A stretch of 64,000 nucleotides of DNA from contig JACQXX010000028.1 in the NCBI GenBank assembly GCA_016208495.1, forward strand, positions 1-64,000, written 5' to 3'. Every line of letters begins with the position of its first letter. Positions within the stretch are counted from its first letter, which is position 1. The translations under genes and the position numbers were made by a program. This stretch comes from Acidobacteriota bacterium. Its GTDB lineage: Bacteria; Acidobacteriota; Blastocatellia; Chloracidobacteriales; Chloracidobacteriaceae. Below, in pieces: positions 6,281 to 44,305 of the stretch. The notes under the pieces were generated by a model that saw only the letters and a list, made by a program, of their open reading frames with translations, did no database searches and was not told the DNA's origin.

Positions 6281-6730
6281 TTAAGAAAATCCAATAAAGC
6301 GGCTTCTCATCTCAGCCGATGGAAGCAGGCAAGAATCGTGTTTGCCAAACCACCGATACCGATGTTTGGCAAATACATCATAAGCCAGATCTCGCAAGCG
6401 CCCTGGTACCAGGTTTCCAATCCAAAAAATATTCCACCATCCGCCCAGATAGGCTGCAATTTTCAGTGCTGCTGTTGATCGAACAAAAACCTGTTCTGAC
6501 TGCCCATTGCTTCCTGGGGCGACATAAATCACTGAATCTATATTTTTTATGTGTGGATGTCGGTTCAGAAGTGATTGGGCAAACTCACTCTGCAACGGGG
6601 CAAAGCGTAAGGTGCCCTGCCGGTCAAATCGAAGAATAAACTGAACACTGTGGTTGCAGAACCCACACACTCCATCATAGAGCAAGACTGGAAAGGCCAG
6701 ACTGGATGAAGTGTGTGATGAGGGTTCCAT
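6281..6730 (-). CDS. DCC-family thiol-disulfide oxidoreductase-like protein (DUF393)
   Basis: A 149-residue protein with the defining N-terminal motif LLYDGVCGFCN (DxxCxxC), followed by VQFILRFD and a FAPLQSE segment, then a Trp-rich helical C-terminus ending in KHRYRWFGKHDSC. DUF393 proteins are predicted thioredoxin-like redox proteins; substrates are unknown. It lies downstream of the ubiquitin-like gene on the same strand, separated by an AATTATG inverted repeat that could form a hairpin, so co-transcription is uncertain. No clear ribosome-binding site precedes the ATG. Confidence 0.85.
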   Translation of the reverse strand: MEPSSHTSSSLAFPVLLYDGVCGFCNHSVQFILRFDRQGTLRFAPLQSEFAQSLLNRHPHIKNIDSVIYVAPGSNGQSEQVFVRSTAALKIAAYLGGWWNIFWIGNLVPGRLRDLAYDVFAKHRYRWFGKHDSCLLPSAEMRSRFIGFS

Positions 6731-6757: not shown

Positions 6758-6824
6758 AATTATGAATTATGAGGGGAGTATGTCATTGAAGATCAATGGG
6801 TTCGCTGTCTCATAATTCATAATT
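6758..6824. repeat. AATTATG heptamer inverted repeat at the Ubl stop codon
   Basis: Two AATTATG heptamers at 6758-6773 are matched by a perfect 16-nt inverted copy at 6809-6824, with a 35-nt loop. The right arm overlaps the 3' end of the ubiquitin-like gene. Read on the minus strand it encodes the residues NYEL and the TGA stop. A hairpin here could end or attenuate transcription before the DCC gene, though there is no U-run. Confidence 0.85.
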
Positions 6825-7076
6825 TCGATGCCTGCCGCCACGCGTATTGAGGAAAATACTCACGGCTTCACCTGACACCACCCCAGCTTGAGCCAGAGTT
6901 TGTCCTGGGCGAAGCTGCATGTTGCGATAAACCAGCGTTGTACCTGGGACACTGGGAATTAATCCAGCTTCAGCCAGATTGCGCAGAATGGCATCTGAGG
7001 TCATATCATCTGAAACCGTGACTTCGACCTCTTTCCCGTTATTTTCGTTCCGAAATGTGACATCAATATCTGACAT
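6810..7076 (-). CDS. Ubiquitin-like beta-grasp protein with C-terminal RGG plus 7-residue tail
   Basis: An 88-residue protein with a ubiquitin-fold pattern: strands at about 3-8 and 16-22, a helix at about 26-38, a strand at 46-51, then QLRPGQTLAQAGVVSGEAVSIFL, which matches the ubiquitin order of G-x-x-L, T-L, G-I, G and a final hydrophobic strand. It ends in R79-G80-G81 followed by RHRNYEL. The Gly-Gly is where Ubls are adenylated by E1 enzymes; the tail would need trimming before activation. An E1-like gene lies upstream on the same strand. The NYEL part of the tail is encoded by a heptamer repeat. Alternatives are a YukD/EsaB-like protein (no type VII secretion genes here) or a sulfur carrier. 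Confidence 0.72.
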   Translation of the reverse strand: MSDIDVTFRNENNGKEVEVTVSDDMTSDAILRNLAEAGLIPSVPGTTLVYRNMQLRPGQTLAQAGVVSGEAVSIFLNTRGGRHRNYEL

Positions 7077-7142
7077 TGCGCCTTTAGCCGGGAAGTGGCT
7101 TTCCTCCTCTTAAGAAGTTAGCAAAACAAAATTGTGTGTACT

Positions 7143-7460
7143 TTACATCGTGGTGTGATTGCACCGCTGACAATGACCTGATTCGAGATGGTACATATCA
7201 ACCTGATGACACACCTCACATCTGGACGGGCGATCCTCTCGTTTGACCAGGAATGTGCCGGAGGCATCATTTGACGCTTCTGGGGGAGGTAATGAAAATC
7301 CATAGGCGTCATCGTGCAGGTCATAGTAGTTCCGCCGTGGAAGTAATCGGAAGCCTCGCAGCCCGTCACTCCCTTCCTGATACCGGTCCTGGATTTCAAG
7401 CCCGACCGAAAAGGCCACCACAACTAAAAAAAAGAGTGCTCCAAGGGCTAAAAAATCCAT
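7143..7460 (-). CDS. Small single-pass membrane protein with C-terminal zinc ribbon
   Basis: A 105-residue protein I do not recognise as a named family. Residues 3-21 form one membrane segment. A charged, Tyr-rich middle part follows, and then a zinc-ribbon-like C-terminus CEVC-x12-CQRC. GGAGGTC lies about 7 nt before the ATG, which supports it as a real gene. It sits between the E1-like gene (213 nt upstream) and the Ubl gene (66 nt downstream) on the same strand. A role as a membrane partner or target of the Ubl/E1 pair is only a guess from position. Confidence 0.7.
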   Translation of the reverse strand: MDFLALGALFFLVVVAFSVGLEIQDRYQEGSDGLRGFRLLPRRNYYDLHDDAYGFSLPPPEASNDASGTFLVKREDRPSRCEVCHQVDMYHLESGHCQRCNHTTM

Positions 7461-7673
7461 GTATGACCTCCGGTTTGGAAGGTTGAAGCATAGCGGAGAA
7501 GCTTCTCAGTGAGAAGACATTCAACCCGCGTTCGCTGACTTTTTGTAAAGCAAGCCGTGGGTTCGGAGCAACCCTGGATGGTTGTGACTCGGTAGACTTG
7601 ATACGGGTCAATGCAGTCTACCCTGGATCAGCTTTTCAGACGAGTCTTAATTTTCAGGCTACGTGAACAATGG

Positions 7674-8939
7674 TTATTGATCCCAGTCACCCAGAAGCTC
7701 TTGTTTATCTCCGGTTAATTCGACGGAGTGAATCTGGCCGCTGGCATCCGTAACCGAAAGAATGTGCAATTGGGGGATTCCAAGATCCCACAGCGAACGG
7801 TCCAGCATCGGTGATGCCAGCGGGCTATCACCCAGATGGTGGCGTGAAATCCGGGTTGTGGCTTTCACATAGGTACTGGAATCAGTTGCGGCTGAGAAGG
7901 TGACTTTCTCCTGGTTTTCCTCACCAAACCGGCAGCGGGGGCAATACACTTCATCGTCAAAAACCCGGTGCGCCGGGCGGTTGAGTTCGATCCAGGTATG
8001 ACAGGACCGGCACCGAATGCCTTCAATAAATCGCCGTCCTAGATCAATTTGAACTCCCGTTCCAAATTTGTGTTCCAGCCAGTCAAGAAATGCTCCAAGT
8101 GATGTGGTTTTGGCCTCGGCGGGTGATTCCACAATTCTGGAAAGGGTGCCGTGAGCCAGACAGTCTGGGTTTTCAGGAAGTCGAATCCGGTGAAATCCGT
8201 GAGTCAACCCATTGTAGGCCAGCCGAACGCCGCATTCGATGGTTTCCTGGTGAAGCAGTTTGACCGCTTCCTGAACCTGCAAGGCGGAAATCAGGGCTGA
8301 CGTGACCTGAACCGTGGGAAGGCGCTCAGCGTCCAGATAGCGTTTTTTGACCTGTTCGCAGGAATCATACCGTGACTGGGCATCTGCGACCTGGTCGGAG
8401 GTGATGTTGCATTCAAAACAACTATTTTCTGTCCCTGAGAAGACCGTCACACTCCCAGCCAGTTCATAGATACCAGCATTGATCCAGGGCGTCCCGACTG
8501 ACCGGGCCGCCCGGTTGATGGCCAGCCGGGCTTCGTCATTATCAACACAGCCGAGAATGACATCCATCCGACGAAAGAGGCCCAACCCAATATCCCACAC
8601 CAGATCAGCATCAAGAGACTGGATCCGGGCGGTTGGCTCTAACATGAGTTCACGGGCCCGCTGTGCCGCCAGCTCGGCTTTGGGACGGCCTACGTCCTCA
8701 GGTCGAAACAGCAGCGTGCGGCTCAGGTTGGATGCGGAAATGGTATCGAAATCAACCACCAGAAGTCGCCCAGCCCCAAGCAAGGCCAGATTTTTCAAGG
8801 CTTCATTGCCCAATGCGCCAGCTCCAATGATCAGAATGCGTGCCTGGCGCAGGACATCTTGCTTCCACCAGCTTAGACGCTCCTGACGATCAAAGGGCGA
8901 TTCATTGGATTCGGGGCGGATGACAAACGAGGAAGTCAT
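7674..8939 (-). CDS. ThiF/MoeB/E1-family adenylating enzyme with C-terminal zinc ribbon
   Basis: A protein of about 421 residues. Numbered from the GTG at 8945: nucleotide loop G41-A-G43-A-L-G46, acidic pair D65/D67, N73, R76, K89 and D135, the residues that bind ATP and the C-terminal Gly of a Ubl in MoeB/ThiF/E1 enzymes. C176-x2-C179 with C262/H265 could form the structural zinc site, and C196 lies where ThiF has its thiol-active Cys. A C-terminal region of about 140 residues adds CxxC-x19-CxxC. The Ubl with an RGG end encoded about 600 nt downstream is its likely substrate. I chose the ATG at 8939; a GTG at 8945 is also possible. No ribosome site is clear, but an AT-rich TATTATATATA lies just upstream. 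Confidence 0.88.
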   Translation of the reverse strand: MTSSFVIRPESNESPFDRQERLSWWKQDVLRQARILIIGAGALGNEALKNLALLGAGRLLVVDFDTISASNLSRTLLFRPEDVGRPKAELAAQRARELMLEPTARIQSLDADLVWDIGLGLFRRMDVILGCVDNDEARLAINRAARSVGTPWINAGIYELAGSVTVFSGTENSCFECNITSDQVADAQSRYDSCEQVKKRYLDAERLPTVQVTSALISALQVQEAVKLLHQETIECGVRLAYNGLTHGFHRIRLPENPDCLAHGTLSRIVESPAEAKTTSLGAFLDWLEHKFGTGVQIDLGRRFIEGIRCRSCHTWIELNRPAHRVFDDEVYCPRCRFGEENQEKVTFSAATDSSTYVKATTRISRHHLGDSPLASPMLDRSLWDLGIPQLHILSVTDASGQIHSVELTGDKQELLGDWDQ

Positions 8940-8969
8940 AAACACACGCTATATATAATAAGGACATGT

Positions 8970-9056
8970 GGGTTCCGGGTTCCGGGTTCCGGGTTCCGGG
9001 TTCCGGGTTCCGGGTTCCGGGTTCCGGGTTCCGGGTTCCGGGTTCCGGGTTCCGGG
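8970..9056. repeat. GGGTTCC heptamer array, about 12.4 copies
   Basis: A perfect tandem array of GGGTTCC on the plus strand between cinA and the E1-like gene. G3-N4-G3-N4 spacing fits a G-quadruplex on the plus strand. It lies about 25 nt upstream of the E1 start, so it sits in that gene's promoter or leader region. The open frame that crosses it is a repeat artefact. Confidence 0.97.
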
Positions 9057-36000: not shown

Positions 36001-37455
36001 GCCTCAGGCCAGGCAGCCTGGGCGTTTCCGCTGGCCGAACATTCCCTGAAAGCCGGCCAATGGGACGCGGCATTTGAAACCGCACTGCGTGCTGGAAGGG
36101 CGATTTTGCGGAAACCGCATGCCCTGGCGGTTTTATGGTCCAACCAAAGCTATCGAACGGGCCAAATTGCCTTGCATCATCTTGAGCCAGCCTCAACCAG
36201 GACGTTGTCTCCGGGCACTTCATCCCAGGAAACCATCCAGACTTATATCCGCTTTCATCTTGAATATGCTGGTGTTCTGCAAACGCTGGGCATTTTTGAG
36301 GCGGCCACCAACCAGATTGCCGAGGCCGAGGCTCTGGCTGACACCGTGGGCAGTTCGTACGTCCTGGCACTGGTGGCTTTGGGGCGGGGGAGGTTGTATG
36401 AAGATCAGGGGAATCTGCGTCTGGCACTGGATTCAGGCTACCAGGGACTGGCCCGATTTATTCAACAGGAGGATTTAGCAGGAATCCTGATGAGTTTGCT
36501 GCTGGTGGCAGGTATTCACACGCGACTGGCTCACTACGCCCGAGCTTTGGAGCAATGTCAACAGGCGTTGCGGCGAGCCCAGGAGCAATCAAACACAAAC
36601 GCCGAAGCAATGGCGCTCTGCGGAATGGGAATGACCCTTCACCATCAGGGTTGTTATGGCGAGGCGCTCAAACGAGGACACCAGGCGCTTGAACTCAGTC
36701 AGCGTGAACGCGGTCAGCGCGAATGGGTTGCCGCGCGGCAGGCACGCACCTTACTGGGTCACCTGTATCTGGACATGGGGATTTGGACCACGGCGAGAGA
36801 ATTTCTCCAAACCGCGCTGACCAGTGCCCAATGCGGCGGATATCGGTTGAGTGAAATGCACCTGCTGGCTTTGATGGGGCGACTCCACTTTGAACTGGCG
36901 GTGCAGCAGGCACATGGGAAAACCCAGGTGAATCCGATCACAATGAGCCCTGAGGTCGCCGCGGAATTAGCGACCGCGACCGAATACCTTGATCAAGCCT
37001 ATCGCCTGGCGGTTCATCTGAATCACCCTGAAACCCAGGCCCGCACGATGCTGACTCGTGGATATATTTTGGCCTTTAAAGGCAAGCTGGGTCTGGCATT
37101 GGATATTGCCCAGCAGGTGATTTCCTTGATTCGTGAAATGGAACGTCCGGCTCTGGAAGTCCAGGCTTATATTGCACTTGGAAATATTCGATTTCGATTG
37201 GGACAATTTGCGGTTGGAATGTATGACCGGGCACTCACGCTGGCTCGTGAGATTGGTCATCAACGGTTGATGTGGCAGGCACTGAGAGGTTTGGCTGATA
37301 TTGCCCGGTCAGGCGGAGATTTACAGCAGGAAAAAGCCTATTTGCTTCAAGCCAGTGAAATCCTGGTTCAGCTTCAGGCTGGACTTCCAGAAGAATTACA
37401 TCAGTCGGCTTTTGCACGGGAGCGCAATATTTTACAGCAGGTCGTGCCAATGTAG
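33079..37455 (+). CDS. Multidomain Ser/Thr kinase with degenerate GGDEF, STAND-type ATPase and TPR repeats
   Basis: A 1458-residue regulator. Order: zinc knuckle (C3-x2-C6, C17), PknB-type kinase (about 40-310: GSGGMGVVYLA, HRDLKPSN, DFGMAK, GTPEYMSPEQ), low-complexity linker, a region (about 370-570) with the GGDEF-domain layout but RYSESRWLVALP where RYGGDEF-x-VLLP is expected, an AAA/STAND ATPase (Walker A GDPGSGKS near 610, Walker B VILCVDDVH near 730), and about ten TPR-like repeats from about 1040. It probably integrates signals through phosphorylation and assembly. The ATG at 33079 starts at the zinc knuckle; longer starts exist. The stop TAG is formed at the edge of a GGGTTCA array. 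Confidence 0.88.
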   Translation: MRCPHCQADFPSGLTVCPKDGHMLMEPSNESFTGFVFDGKYELLHQLGSGGMGVVYLAQQCSTGKQVAVKIRHQESKAELDRFQREAQAASLMNHPHSVTILDYGITADGIYYIAMELLQGPSLSEELAAKGFFSFDRTLEFMRPVAQALSAAHALGLIHRDLKPSNVLLHRPSPGIEIVKVVDFGMAKMDQLDQSSAQLTGTGWVLGTPEYMSPEQCLGHTVDARTDIYSFGVMLFELLTGQLPFRDTTISNILLKQISEHPPYLRKFRPELPASLESFILRLLSKLPSSRPGTLSDVLAELEGIWKRWHQEAQSHTQSDAGSEGMAAGAGPTPPGPSVASLSSTNAPTLVATLLDVPTAWELDERETLSGCYLRTAFIRRFEDWLLKTSPVPPETPLGCLLVLELVGWEAWRTTAQIEEVEQALRDTGQILTRVFGGAALLGRYSESRWLVALPWPESPNLNAKSRIENFTHRSVLEFHRTVQRNPLLGMAARLVVSAGGVLFRRGEQAQPLITIALERLQRARKKERGTVILENEPTVLPAGKALEATFLKSLRTGPLPQLELSTETEFVGLLKEHRFVGRSTVIERLRSAFYQNLRDTAYPAWILGDPGSGKSYLLEQLGDQLALKDVFIRQVRFTQAEPDDGLSIFYEALRDLLKRLVEEDPDSLPATFGTLTDRVREDFLDQEAVSQVILNASGRDLPLLAETQKIEQFEYFTRVFGLIARCRPVILCVDDVHCAQPTGLEFVSYLLRRTGSERFFLILTLCRPEIERDGSLVKAWFRQIQRAFPGESISLADFTLHDVRRLVESMVWPSQVCEEAICRLMLETKGNPRYVKELVTLLHEENRLVYQADCWRLSSGTDVLPVPACVLRDAEALVAQMDPEAQDVLSMAAFIHERFAFDVLRELTQLPEGTLLEILEKAMDRQILVEDEEVQDGYRFSNPVVGRILAGRLDQEDRKDLHRRVCKLIEPYASGQAAWAFPLAEHSLKAGQWDAAFETALRAGRAILRKPHALAVLWSNQSYRTGQIALHHLEPASTRTLSPGTSSQETIQTYIRFHLEYAGVLQTLGIFEAATNQIAEAEALADTVGSSYVLALVALGRGRLYEDQGNLRLALDSGYQGLARFIQQEDLAGILMSLLLVAGIHTRLAHYARALEQCQQALRRAQEQSNTNAEAMALCGMGMTLHHQGCYGEALKRGHQALELSQRERGQREWVAARQARTLLGHLYLDMGIWTTAREFLQTALTSAQCGGYRLSEMHLLALMGRLHFELAVQQAHGKTQVNPITMSPEVAAELATATEYLDQAYRLAVHLNHPETQARTMLTRGYILAFKGKLGLALDIAQQVISLIREMERPALEVQAYIALGNIRFRLGQFAVGMYDRALTLAREIGHQRLMWQALRGLADIARSGGDLQQEKAYLLQASEILVQLQAGLPEELHQSAFARERNILQQVVPM

Positions 37456-37549
37456 GGTTCAGGGTTCAGGGTTCAGGGTTCAGGGTTCAGGGTTCAGGGT
37501 TCAGGGTTCAGGGTTCAGGGTTCAGGGTTCAGGGTTCAGGGTTCAGGGT
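37455..37549. repeat. GGGTTCA heptamer array, about 13.6 copies
   Basis: Perfect GGGTTCA tandem array on the plus strand starting at the last base of the kinase stop codon. The G3-N4 spacing fits G-quadruplex formation in the sense RNA. It faces a GGGTTCC array of the convergent ompH gene. Frames through it are artefacts. Confidence 0.97.
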
Positions 37550-37703
37550 TTTCGAACCCGAACCGGAAATCATCATCAATTTTGCAATCCGTAAACGACC
37601 TGTCTTAATTCAACCACCACTTCGCGGCGAAACCCCTGACAGGTAACAAGGTTACAAAATGGCAAAGCAAAGTAAAAGAATGACAAAGTGACAAGAGATT
37701 TTT

Positions 37704-38261
37704 TCATCCCTCAGGCTGCATCCCTTCGAAGAACCCGGAACCCGGAACCCGGAACCCGGAACCCGGAACCCGGAACCCGGAACCCGGAACCCGGAACCCG
37801 GAACCCGGAACCCGGAACCCGGAACCCGGCACCCCGTTACTTCTTGCCTGGGAATGTCCGGGACGTAGCGGATCAAGCGCGACGATTGAGCGTTTCCCGA
37901 TGGTTTCTTTGAGATCTTCAACTCTCCGATTATAGTCTTTTTTAGCTTTCTCAAGTTCTTCAACCCGGCGCTGACGGGCCCCTGGCTGAAGATCCTGCAA
38001 CGTGCGGCGAAGGGCTTCTTCATCCAGTTGAAGCTGTTCAGCCAGTTTCTCGAGCTGATCGTTGGCTGGTTTAAATTCACGCTCAAGAATTTCGGTTTGT
38101 TGCCGGAACTCAATGATATTTTCACCAAACTCCAGTGAATTCACAAAAGCGATTTTGGCTTCGGCTTGAGCGGCAGGTTGTTGAGCCTGTGCCTGCGGAG
38201 CACCAAACCCAAGGCTGATAGCCAGGGCAAAAACACACAAAGAAAAACGGAATTTCGACAT
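37704..38261 (-). CDS. ompH: OmpH/Skp-like periplasmic chaperone with repeat-encoded C-terminus
   Basis: A 185-residue reading frame. A signal peptide (about 1-26, ending AQAQ) precedes the OmpH start IAFVNSLEFGENI and a long charged coiled coil (about 55-125). Around residue 140 (VALDPLR) the family sequence stops, and from about 147 the frame reads GFRVPGS units encoded by a GGGTTCC array. Normal OmpH/Skp has a further segment (I..KI...I..VAK..GY..V) that is missing. It may therefore be truncated with a low-complexity tail, or non-functional. It follows bamA at 106 nt, the usual bamA-ompH order. Confidence 0.75.
   Translation of the reverse strand: MSKFRFSLCVFALAISLGFGAPQAQAQQPAAQAEAKIAFVNSLEFGENIIEFRQQTEILEREFKPANDQLEKLAEQLQLDEEALRRTLQDLQPGARQRRVEELEKAKKDYNRRVEDLKETIGKRSIVALDPLRPGHSQARSNGVPGSGFRVPGSGFRVPGSGFRVPGSGFRVPGSGFFEGMQPEG
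37731..37829. repeat. GGGTTCC heptamer array (C-rich on plus strand), about 14 copies
   Basis: Tandem GAACCCG on the plus strand, that is GGGTTCC on the minus strand, lying inside the 3' part of the ompH frame. It is the same unit as at 8970-9056 but in the opposite orientation. Confidence 0.97.
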
Positions 38262-41950: not shown

Positions 41951-44305
41951 TTAATGTGTCACCAGCGCGCCGCCGGGTTCTTCGACCGGGACTGGCCGGA
42001 ATTGGATTTCGCCGCCTTCGAGCAAAACCGAAATGTGAGTGCCGGTTTCAAATCTGCCTTGAATCACCGATTCAGACAGGGGGTCTTCAATGTAGCGCTG
42101 AATTGCCCGACGTAAGGGGCGGGCACCGTAAGATCGTTCCGCCGCCGTGCGAGTGACAATCCATTTGGCGGCTTCGGATGCCAGTGACAGGCTCAGGTGT
42201 CGCCGCACCAGGGTGTGGTTCAGTTGATTGACCAGCAGATGCACAATCTGTTCCAGATCGTCTTCCGACAACGGTTCAAAGATGATGATTTCATCCAAAC
42301 GATTGATGAATTCGGGGTTAAAGGTGTGCCGGACTTCGCTCATCACGGCATCTTCGATTCGGGTTTGCTCGGCACCAGCGGATGGCTGGAAGCCTAAACT
42401 GCCGCGTTTTTGGATAAAACGGGCGCCGATGTTGGAGGTCATGATGATAATGACGTTTTTAAAGTCAATCGTGTTGCCCAGGCTGTCAGATAATTGTCCG
42501 TCTTCGAACACCTGGAGCAGGATATTGAAAATGTCGGGATGCGCTTTCTCGATTTCATCAAAGAGCAACACTGAATAAGGATTGCGTTTGACGCGTTCGG
42601 TTAATTGACCGCCTTCCTCGTGGCCAACGTAGCCTGGAGGTGAGCCAATCAGCTTTGACACCGAATGTTTTTCCATAAATTCCGACATATCAAAGCGGAT
42701 CATGGCGCGTTCGCTGCCAAACAAAAATTCAGCCAGCGAGCGGGCCACTTCAGTTTTCCCCACACCGGTTGGCCCGAGGAACAAAAAGCTTCCAACGGGG
42801 CGATTCGGATTTTTTAATCCAGCGCGCGAACGCCGAATGGCGCGCGCGAGGGCGGAGATGGCCTGATCCTGACTGACAATGCGTTTGTGCAATTCGCCTT
42901 CGAGCCGCATCAGCTTTTCCATTTCCTCTTCTTTAATGGAATTCATCGGGATGCCGGTCCAGCGCGAAATCACGCTTTCAATATCTTCCTTATCAACCAG
43001 CGCCACGCTTTGATCCCACATTTTTAGTTCGGCATCCAGGTTGGCGGTGGCGCTGGGCCCGGAACCTGGCCGGCGGAACGCACGTGAACTGACCAGGTGT
43101 GAAACCCGAAGCTTCACCTGTGATCCGGCTTCATCAATGATATCAATGGCTTTATCGGGGAGGAACCGGTCGGGGATATACCGATTTGATTGAAAGACCG
43201 CCGTTTCGATGGCGTCCTGGGTGTAGGTGACGTGGTGGAACTCTTCGTACTTTTCCTTGATGCCTTCCAGAATCCGAATTGCCTCATCTTCAGATGGTGC
43301 CGGAACTTTCACGGCCTGAAAGCGGCGTTCCAGCGAGCGGTCTTTTTCGATGGATTTGCGAAATTCGGCGGGTGTTGTGGCGCCAATGCACTGAATTTCA
43401 CCGCGGGAAAGAGCTGGTTTTAAGATATTGGCGGCATCGAGCGAACCTTCCGCCGAACCGGCACCCACCAGCGTGTGCAACTCATCAATAAAAATGATGT
43501 ACTGGGGGTTTTCGACCAGTTCCCGCATAATCGTTTTCAGTCGTTCTTCAAACTGTCCGCGATATTTGGTGCCAGCGACCACCAGACTCAAATCCAGCGC
43601 CAGAATTTGTTTATCAGCCAGAAAATGCGGTACTTCGCCGCTGACGATACGCTGAGCCAATCCTTCGACAATGGCGGTTTTGCCAACCCCCGGTTCACCA
43701 ATCAGGACTGGATTGTTTTTGGTGCGACGGCACAAAATCTGAATCACTCGTTCGACTTCGTTGGTGCGCCCAATCAGCGGATCCAGATTTCCCTGGCGGG
43801 CGGACTCGGTCAAATCCCGGCTGAATTCAGCCAGATGGGGTGTTTCTTTCTTTTGGGTGGCATGCCGGTCAGATCCTGAAGTCCGGGAGAGTTCGTCGCG
43901 GATGGCATTGAGGCGTAGTCCCCGCTCATACAAAATTCGGGCGGCAACGCTGTTTTCTTCTCGCAGCAGCCCCAAAAGCAGGTGCTCAGTGCCAATATGA
44001 CGATGGGAAAGCCGTTCCGATTCTTCAGCCGCAAAGGTCAAAACCCGTTTCGCTTCAGGGGAAAGCGGTAAATCAACGGTCGGAGAGGTACGTTCGCGGG
44101 GAATGGTCCGCGATTCAATATCGCGGCGGATGGATTCAATCGAAATTTGTGCGCGCACCAGGAAGCGGTTGGTTAAGCCTTTATCTTCGCGCATGAGACC
44201 GAGCAGGATATGTTCGGCATCAATGGCAGGCGCCCCGAACTGACTCGCCTCGTAACGAGCGAAAAAAATAACGCGACGGGCTTTTTCAGTGTATCTCTCA
44301 AACAT
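41951..44305 (-). CDS. clpC: ClpC-type AAA+ unfoldase lacking the middle domain
   Basis: A 784-residue Hsp100 protein. N-terminal Clp repeats (about 1-145, FERYTEKARRVIFFARYEA, GTEHLLLGLLREE), AAA1 (GEPGVGKTAIVEGLA, FIDELHTLVGAG), AAA2 (GPTGVGKTEVARSLA, LLFDEIEKAHPDIFN) and a D2-small C-terminus. Between AIDIIDEAGSQVKLR and the SRWTGIP motif there are only about 45 residues, where ClpC normally has the coiled-coil M domain that binds McsB/MecA-type adaptors. It should feed ClpP, which is not in this window. AAGGA lies 8 nt before the ATG. Confidence 0.93.
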   Translation of the reverse strand: MFERYTEKARRVIFFARYEASQFGAPAIDAEHILLGLMREDKGLTNRFLVRAQISIESIRRDIESRTIPRERTSPTVDLPLSPEAKRVLTFAAEESERLSHRHIGTEHLLLGLLREENSVAARILYERGLRLNAIRDELSRTSGSDRHATQKKETPHLAEFSRDLTESARQGNLDPLIGRTNEVERVIQILCRRTKNNPVLIGEPGVGKTAIVEGLAQRIVSGEVPHFLADKQILALDLSLVVAGTKYRGQFEERLKTIMRELVENPQYIIFIDELHTLVGAGSAEGSLDAANILKPALSRGEIQCIGATTPAEFRKSIEKDRSLERRFQAVKVPAPSEDEAIRILEGIKEKYEEFHHVTYTQDAIETAVFQSNRYIPDRFLPDKAIDIIDEAGSQVKLRVSHLVSSRAFRRPGSGPSATANLDAELKMWDQSVALVDKEDIESVISRWTGIPMNSIKEEEMEKLMRLEGELHKRIVSQDQAISALARAIRRSRAGLKNPNRPVGSFLFLGPTGVGKTEVARSLAEFLFGSERAMIRFDMSEFMEKHSVSKLIGSPPGYVGHEEGGQLTERVKRNPYSVLLFDEIEKAHPDIFNILLQVFEDGQLSDSLGNTIDFKNVIIIMTSNIGARFIQKRGSLGFQPSAGAEQTRIEDAVMSEVRHTFNPEFINRLDEIIIFEPLSEDDLEQIVHLLVNQLNHTLVRRHLSLSLASEAAKWIVTRTAAERSYGARPLRRAIQRYIEDPLSESVIQGRFETGTHISVLLEGGEIQFRPVPVEEPGGALVTH

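Follow-up and report, generated by a model that had tools for sequence, protein, structure and literature searches.

A probable ubiquitin-like conjugation system in Chloracidobacteriales with its genes divided between separate loci

The window (i.e. the whole stretch of 64,000 nucleotides that was analyzed, on the contig here called C28) carries three genes on one strand that encode a ubiquitin-like protein (Ubl), a membrane zinc protein, and an E1-like activating enzyme. Their features are as follows:

6810..7076, minus strand: Ubl of 88 amino acids with a predicted β-grasp fold; RGG codons at 6834-6842 and codons of a seven-residue tail at 6813-6833
6813..6842, minus strand: RGG C terminus of the Ubl and its variable tail; RGG is kept in 14/14 genomes of the order
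7143..7460, minus strand: membrane zinc protein of 105 amino acids with an N-terminal transmembrane segment and a C-terminal zinc module
7146..7259, minus strand: zinc module, residues 68-105 (FLVKREDRPSRCEVCHQVDMYHLESGHCQRC); founder match of a lineage-specific family
7674..8945, minus strand: E1-like activating enzyme of 423 amino acids
8157..8864, minus strand: ThiF/MoeB-type adenylation domain of the E1 with the zinc site C176/C179/C262/H265
8358..8360, minus strand: codon of E1 C196, the predicted thioester cysteine, invariant in 33 diverse E1s of several phyla
7707..8135, minus strand: C-terminal part of the E1, residues ~271-413, with a CxxC..CxxC zinc ribbon at 7932-8012

Rechecking of the open reading frame coordinates placed all three genes where the earlier note had them, and their order E1–zinc protein–Ubl on one strand recurs in 12 relatives. 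Identities to the window proteins herein amount to about 80-88% for the Ubl core, 52-64% for the E1, and about 30-58% for the zinc protein. Since sequence and order are both conserved, the three reading frames are genes and not chance open reading frames. Wherever the locus is assembled, which is the case in 13 genomes, the zinc protein stands between E1 and Ubl. The window genome (G000) has a size of 8.4 Mb, is 99% complete, and belongs to the same family as the matching relatives.

The Ubl is adjoined on the same strand by a gene for a DCC1-like thiol-disulfide oxidoreductase (window 6281-6730); no such gene was seen next to the Ubl of relatives. On the other side, a perfect heptamer array (GGGTTCC, 12.4 copies, window 8970-9056) separates the E1 from cinA, and further arrays occur at 37454-37550, 37731-37834, and elsewhere in the window. 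A 24-base stretch of the array has 555 copies on both strands of the genome compared with 0 for its reversed control; hence, the arrays are a genome-wide feature.

The Ubl ends in RGG at residues 79-81, followed by the tail RHRNYEL. Its AF2 model (pLDDT 86.8, 30 sequences) and a fold search agree with the β-grasp fold read from the sequence; from residue 80 onward, the modeled chain is a disordered tail. Among solved structures, the Ubl is closest to ubiquitin, ISG15, and NEDD8-type proteins (Z 12-14), and Caldiarchaeum ubiquitin is among the top folds. Across 30 diverse Ubls, only the column of the second glycine, G81, is invariant. The RGG end is particular to the order: most relatives end in TAG, VAG, or DAG, and RGG occurs elsewhere in one KSB1 locus. 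The model of YukD (YukD/EsaB of type VII secretion) scores 18 bits against the Ubl, which is under its 27-bit cut-off, and neither the Ubl nor the zinc protein could be assigned to a family with NCBIfam and PADLOC models. The tail after RGG is absent in three genomes of the order, consists of one residue in three, and is longer in the rest. This pattern fits trimming by the JAMM protein, by analogy with the Caldiarchaeum pro-ubiquitin, whose tail has been shown experimentally to be trimmed by its Rpn11 (PMC5654768).

The E1 contains a single ThiF domain in its 423 residues (match 4.2e-50). Its model (pLDDT 88.8) superimposes on MoeB over 230 residues (Z 31.9, 2.0 Å). Alignments to UBA3, SAE2, and UBA1 reach residue 413, i.e. 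beyond the adenylation domain; one of them is that to 9dqb_B over 316 residues (Z 28.9, 4.4 Å). As these full-length alignments to eukaryotic E1s cover the ubiquitin-fold domain, we infer from the model that the C-terminal part of the enzyme may be such a domain that recruits E2. It includes the added zinc ribbon, formed by C312/C315/C335/C338, of which C338 is at least 90% conserved. The enzyme resembles E1s of the UBA5/MoeB type in its single adenylation domain, the CxxC..CxxH zinc site, and the cysteine that follows this site in the crossover loop—the possible thiol cysteine already pointed out as C196. What sets it apart from them is the C-terminal part with its zinc ribbon, which can be aligned to the ubiquitin-fold domain region of UBA3/SAE2/UBA1. 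When public bacterial genomes were scanned with this E1, 80 loci came up, mainly from Chloroflexi, Planctomycetes, and Cyanobacteria; since most of them hold Ubl, E2, and JAB genes beside the E1, the window E1 belongs to the widespread Ubl-E1-E2-JAB kind.

The earlier note had described the locus as lacking E2 and JAB, which is correct for the locus itself and incorrect for the genome. Searched with sister-family proteins as queries, the window genome contains a single E2 homologue (43511-44068) and, adjoining it, a single JAB homologue (42629-43438), both on contig C72. In the E2, H85-P86 and the catalytic cysteine C95 are invariant among 18 sequences; the motif reads HPH where eukaryotic E2s have HPN, and the score against Pfam UQ_con (20.7) stays under the gathering score of 27. 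The JAB protein matches the Prok-JAB and JAB Pfam families above the gathering score, its JAMM residues E74, H151, H153, S161, and D164 are invariant among 13 sequences, and its best solved relative is the Rpn11 of Caldiarchaeum. As the genome encodes both enzymes at another place, by intact genes that are co-inherited, a minimal system of Ubl and E1 without E2 and JAB, as initially proposed, is rejected.

Both enzymes follow the Ubl through the whole order. Ubl, E2, and JAB are each present in 14/14 searched genomes, including Chloracidobacterium, with one E2 and one JAB apiece, and the E1 in 13/14. For the remaining genome (G002), loss of the E1 was considered and rejected: the assembly breaks here, and a contig of 3,122 bp begins inside the zinc gene. 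The Ubl co-occurs with its cognate conjugation-type E1 across the relatives. The E2 and JAB queries returned distant matches at most from 44 other genomes of the class. Gene adjacency varies within the order. In the sister family, G011-G013 show the order E1–zinc protein–Ubl–E2–JAB, one of the three with a gap before JAB, and G010 shows E1–zinc protein–zinc protein–Ubl–E2 with a duplicated zinc gene; in all four the gene after the Ubl is an E2 by its UQ_con match and its HPHVWPDGKxC motif. In the window genome, E1–zinc protein–Ubl and E2–JAB form two separate places; the genomes of Chloracidobacterium have E2 and JAB apart from each other too. Because E2 and JAB are present at another locus, the system is complete but split. 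The link between the genes on C28 and those on C72 is drawn from the sister-family synteny and from co-occurrence in one clade, which counts as a single evolutionary origin. Immediately upstream of the sister-family E1 lie genes for a PP2C phosphatase and a double-zinc-ribbon FHA protein, in divergent orientation (L045 6018-8156; L047 1750-3994).

Taken as a set, these genes probably constitute a complete ubiquitin-like conjugation system, with modifier, E1, and membrane partner at the window locus and E2 and JAMM deconjugase elsewhere in the genome. This judgment, made from sequences and models, concerns the conjugation system and leaves the role of the zinc-module family aside.

A reading of the Ubl as a sulfur carrier like ThiS, MoaD, or SAMP, with an E1 that only adenylates it for thiocarboxylate formation, draws on the closest single-domain E1 structures, which are MoeB and ThiF, and on the matches of MoeB/ThiF models to the enzyme. 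GG ends, moreover, occur in sulfur carriers too. Against it, the E1 lacks a rhodanese domain, the locus is free of thi and moa genes, as had been noted, and other MoeB/ThiF-like E1s of the ThiF family are encoded on contigs C127, C79, and C110. The top structural matches of the Ubl are ubiquitin-type proteins, and an E2 with intact cysteine is co-inherited with a JAMM protease in 14/14 genomes. Sulfur transfer, offered earlier as one possible function, is left unsupported by the missing rhodanese domain, the separate MoeB/ThiF-like E1s, and the E2 in the set, and we regard it as very improbable.

Ubl-E1-E2-JAB systems have been predicted computationally in bacteria since 2006 (Iyer, Burroughs and Aravind 2006, PMC1779556), and for operons of this composition a passage of PMC7159879 cites Burroughs 2011. 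The components of the conjugation system described here are of this kind. It shares with these operons the four enzymatic components, and the related E1 subfamily stands together with Ubl, E2, and JAB in operons of many phyla. It differs in that the order's set is dispersed, present as an order-wide single copy, provided with an RGG end, and accompanied by an extra membrane zinc-module protein. In Caldiarchaeum subterraneum, too, the system has one Ubl whose GG is followed by a short tail, together with an E1, an E2, and a JAMM protease (PMC5654768; Rpn11, PMC6043591), whereas the window system is bacterial, its homologues are distant, and no RING protein was found. Bil (BilABCD) is also a bacterial set of Ubl, E1, E2, and JAB, but its Ubl is built of two domains and its E1 of two modules (PMC11354881). 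The Bil Ubl is ISG15-like and the Bil E1 combines an inactive and an active adenylation domain, compared with one Ubl domain (88 aa) and one ThiF domain in the window system. Bub can be likened to it by its components, again a bacterial set of Ubl, E1, E2, and JAB. The open-licence papers that were searched contain no report of this system in Chloracidobacterium. Elsewhere in the class, G017 and G041 (L049, L050) contain Ubl-E1-E2-JAB operons with a vWA protein, which in L050 carries a C-terminal Prok-RING_1 domain; the Ubls of these operons are longer and apparently double-domain.

Phage defense or stress is where known bacterial Ubl-E1-E2-JAB operons work or are presumed to work (PMC12687455, PMC13373217), and PADLOC E1-E2 models match the window E1. 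An anti-phage role of the Bil/Bub/CBASS type would concern the role only and be compatible with conjugation chemistry. Such a role is unlikely here: the PADLOC matches are partial, with BilD reaching only 28 bits; the genes are spread over two or three loci and do not form a mobile cassette; and each genome of the order has the system in single copy, its Ubl being strongly conserved and its neighbors being housekeeping genes such as rpsA, cinA, and ubiE. Between G001 and G004 or near relatives, identity is 86% for the Ubl, 76% for the E2, 69% for ribosomal protein S1, 62% for UbiE, 57% for the E1, 56% for the JAB, and 45% for the zinc protein. The order-wide single copy, the conserved Ubl, and the housekeeping neighbors together suggest, at the level of sequence, a core, housekeeping function, and the system is apparently a dispersed, housekeeping variant of the known bacterial Ubl-E1-E2-JAB systems.

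A short strand motif recurs in several components. The E2s of the order carry F-x-(I/V/L)-(K/R) at the C terminus (10/10, compared with 0/305 background open reading frames), and the JABs carry the same motif at the N terminus (10/10, compared with 4/305), with F3, I5, and K6 invariant. Examples are the E2 tail HTFVIKRV, the JAB head MTFVIKKVRDV, and the zinc module FVIKQETLPARCEVCHQ. Upstream of the zinc module, the form hydrophobic-x-(I/V/L)-(K/R) is found in 27/32 modules and in 11/305 random 12-mers. Other phyla have their own versions: Chloroflexi E2s end RIKLK-like (25/26; background 14/316) and Planctomycete E2s end DI-x-FI(D/E)-like (11/12; background 0/139), with matching N-terminal JAB motifs in 8/23 and 9/16, respectively. 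All strand motif patterns were defined after inspection of the sequences. Over 70 loci, the charge of the E2 tail is opposite to that of the Ubl (rho -0.73). Independent contrasts on a tree of 67 E1s retain this relation (r = -0.33, p = 0.003) and give r = 0.05 for E2-tail against E1 charge. The Ubl charge tracks the charge of the E2 core too, and that of the E1 weakly. The sequences herein suggest that the E2-tail strand binds the Ubl; because the patterns are post hoc and the E2 core correlates as well, charge and motif support such binding without proving it.

The zinc module follows the pattern F-x-I-K-x-E-x-L-P-x-R-C-E-I-C-H-Q-x-D-x-F ... C-x-R-C and is not confined to the window locus. 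The window genome has 35 matching places, G001 has 38, and G011 has 27; Chloracidobacterium and G010 have one or two, and 44 other genomes of the class have none. A profile of the module run against 297 genomes of the phylum detected it in 6/6 genomes of the order, plus one marginal match elsewhere; as 25 candidates per genome were scored, the profile counts are lower bounds. At least 33 other open reading frames of the window genome contain the module, nearly always N-terminal and followed by predicted transmembrane segments, with varied C-terminal parts that include ankyrin repeats. They lie on contigs C47, C18, C80, C95, C76, C103, and others (L193-L212), some in tandem, and two of those with ankyrin repeats adjoin each other (L204). 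A search of the PDB with a profile of the module gave nothing significant. A RING E3 was considered and rejected for the module of the membrane zinc protein, which the earlier note had put forward as a possible target or ligase: only C14, C17, H18, C30, and C33 are conserved as possible ligands in 28 modules, i.e. four cysteines and one histidine compared with the eight ligands for two zinc ions, which is too few for a RING. No RING protein was seen among the conserved neighbors either.

By their sequences, the strand motif and the order-restricted zinc-module family look new. One proposal, tentative and rather doubtful, is that dozens of zinc-module membrane proteins are readers, adaptors, or substrates of the Ubl of a single E1-E2-JAMM set through a SIM-like strand, with E2 tail, deconjugase, and clients sharing a Ubl-binding strand whose charge has co-evolved across phyla. 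There is, on the other hand, an even chance that the family is unrelated to the Ubl system and represents an order-specific form of the N-terminal zinc ribbon common in bacterial membrane proteins, of which one copy came to lie between E1 and Ubl by chance. The module is weakly similar to the double zinc ribbon DZR_2, co-occurrence in a single clade has little statistical weight, and one or two module copies are enough for Chloracidobacterium. Set against this are the position of a zinc-module member between E1 and Ubl in 13/13 assembled loci, its doubling in G010, the confinement of the module to the order with one marginal exception, and its sharing of the strand motif with E2 tail and JAB head (27/32 compared with 11/305). 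The hypothetical role as reader, adaptor, or substrate of the Ubl and an unrelated zinc ribbon specific to the lineage thus have about equal likelihood.

For the preferred reading, a complete conjugation system, we infer the chemistry as follows, as we do the partner of the motif, the role of the zinc family, and the housekeeping role. The JAMM protease would trim the Ubl tail and thereby expose RGG, a step superfluous for those relatives in which RGG is already the end of the gene product. The E1 would adenylate RGG and then load the Ubl onto C196. The E2 would dock on the C-terminal domain of the E1, receive the Ubl on Cys95, and hand it to lysines of target proteins, from which the same JAMM protease would remove it. 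Bringing the machinery to the membrane, or reading it there, may fall to the membrane zinc protein and perhaps to its zinc-module paralogs, which would use the strand F-x-I/V-K/R that is common to E2 tail and JAB head and probably binds the Ubl. A 20S proteasome finds no support as the fate of conjugates: the two PF00227 matches of the genome are taken as HslV-like (C55, by score and length only) and Anbu-type (C59, by eye). The latter lies in what appears by eye as an Anbu-type proteasome-like operon with ATP-grasp, alpha-E, and Anbu genes (L213).

Most descriptions of bacterial ubiquitin-like systems concern operons of sporadic occurrence, many of them connected with phage defense. Here, a full set occurs in single copy throughout a whole order that includes the cultivated Chloracidobacterium, and conservation of its modifier exceeds that of ribosomal protein S1; this speaks for an everyday role in the cell. 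The order hence offers a tractable case for the function of ubiquitin-like tagging in an uninfected bacterium. If the strand motif binds the Ubl, partners could be sought in many phyla by a simple sequence feature, with the zinc-module family as a first list of candidates.
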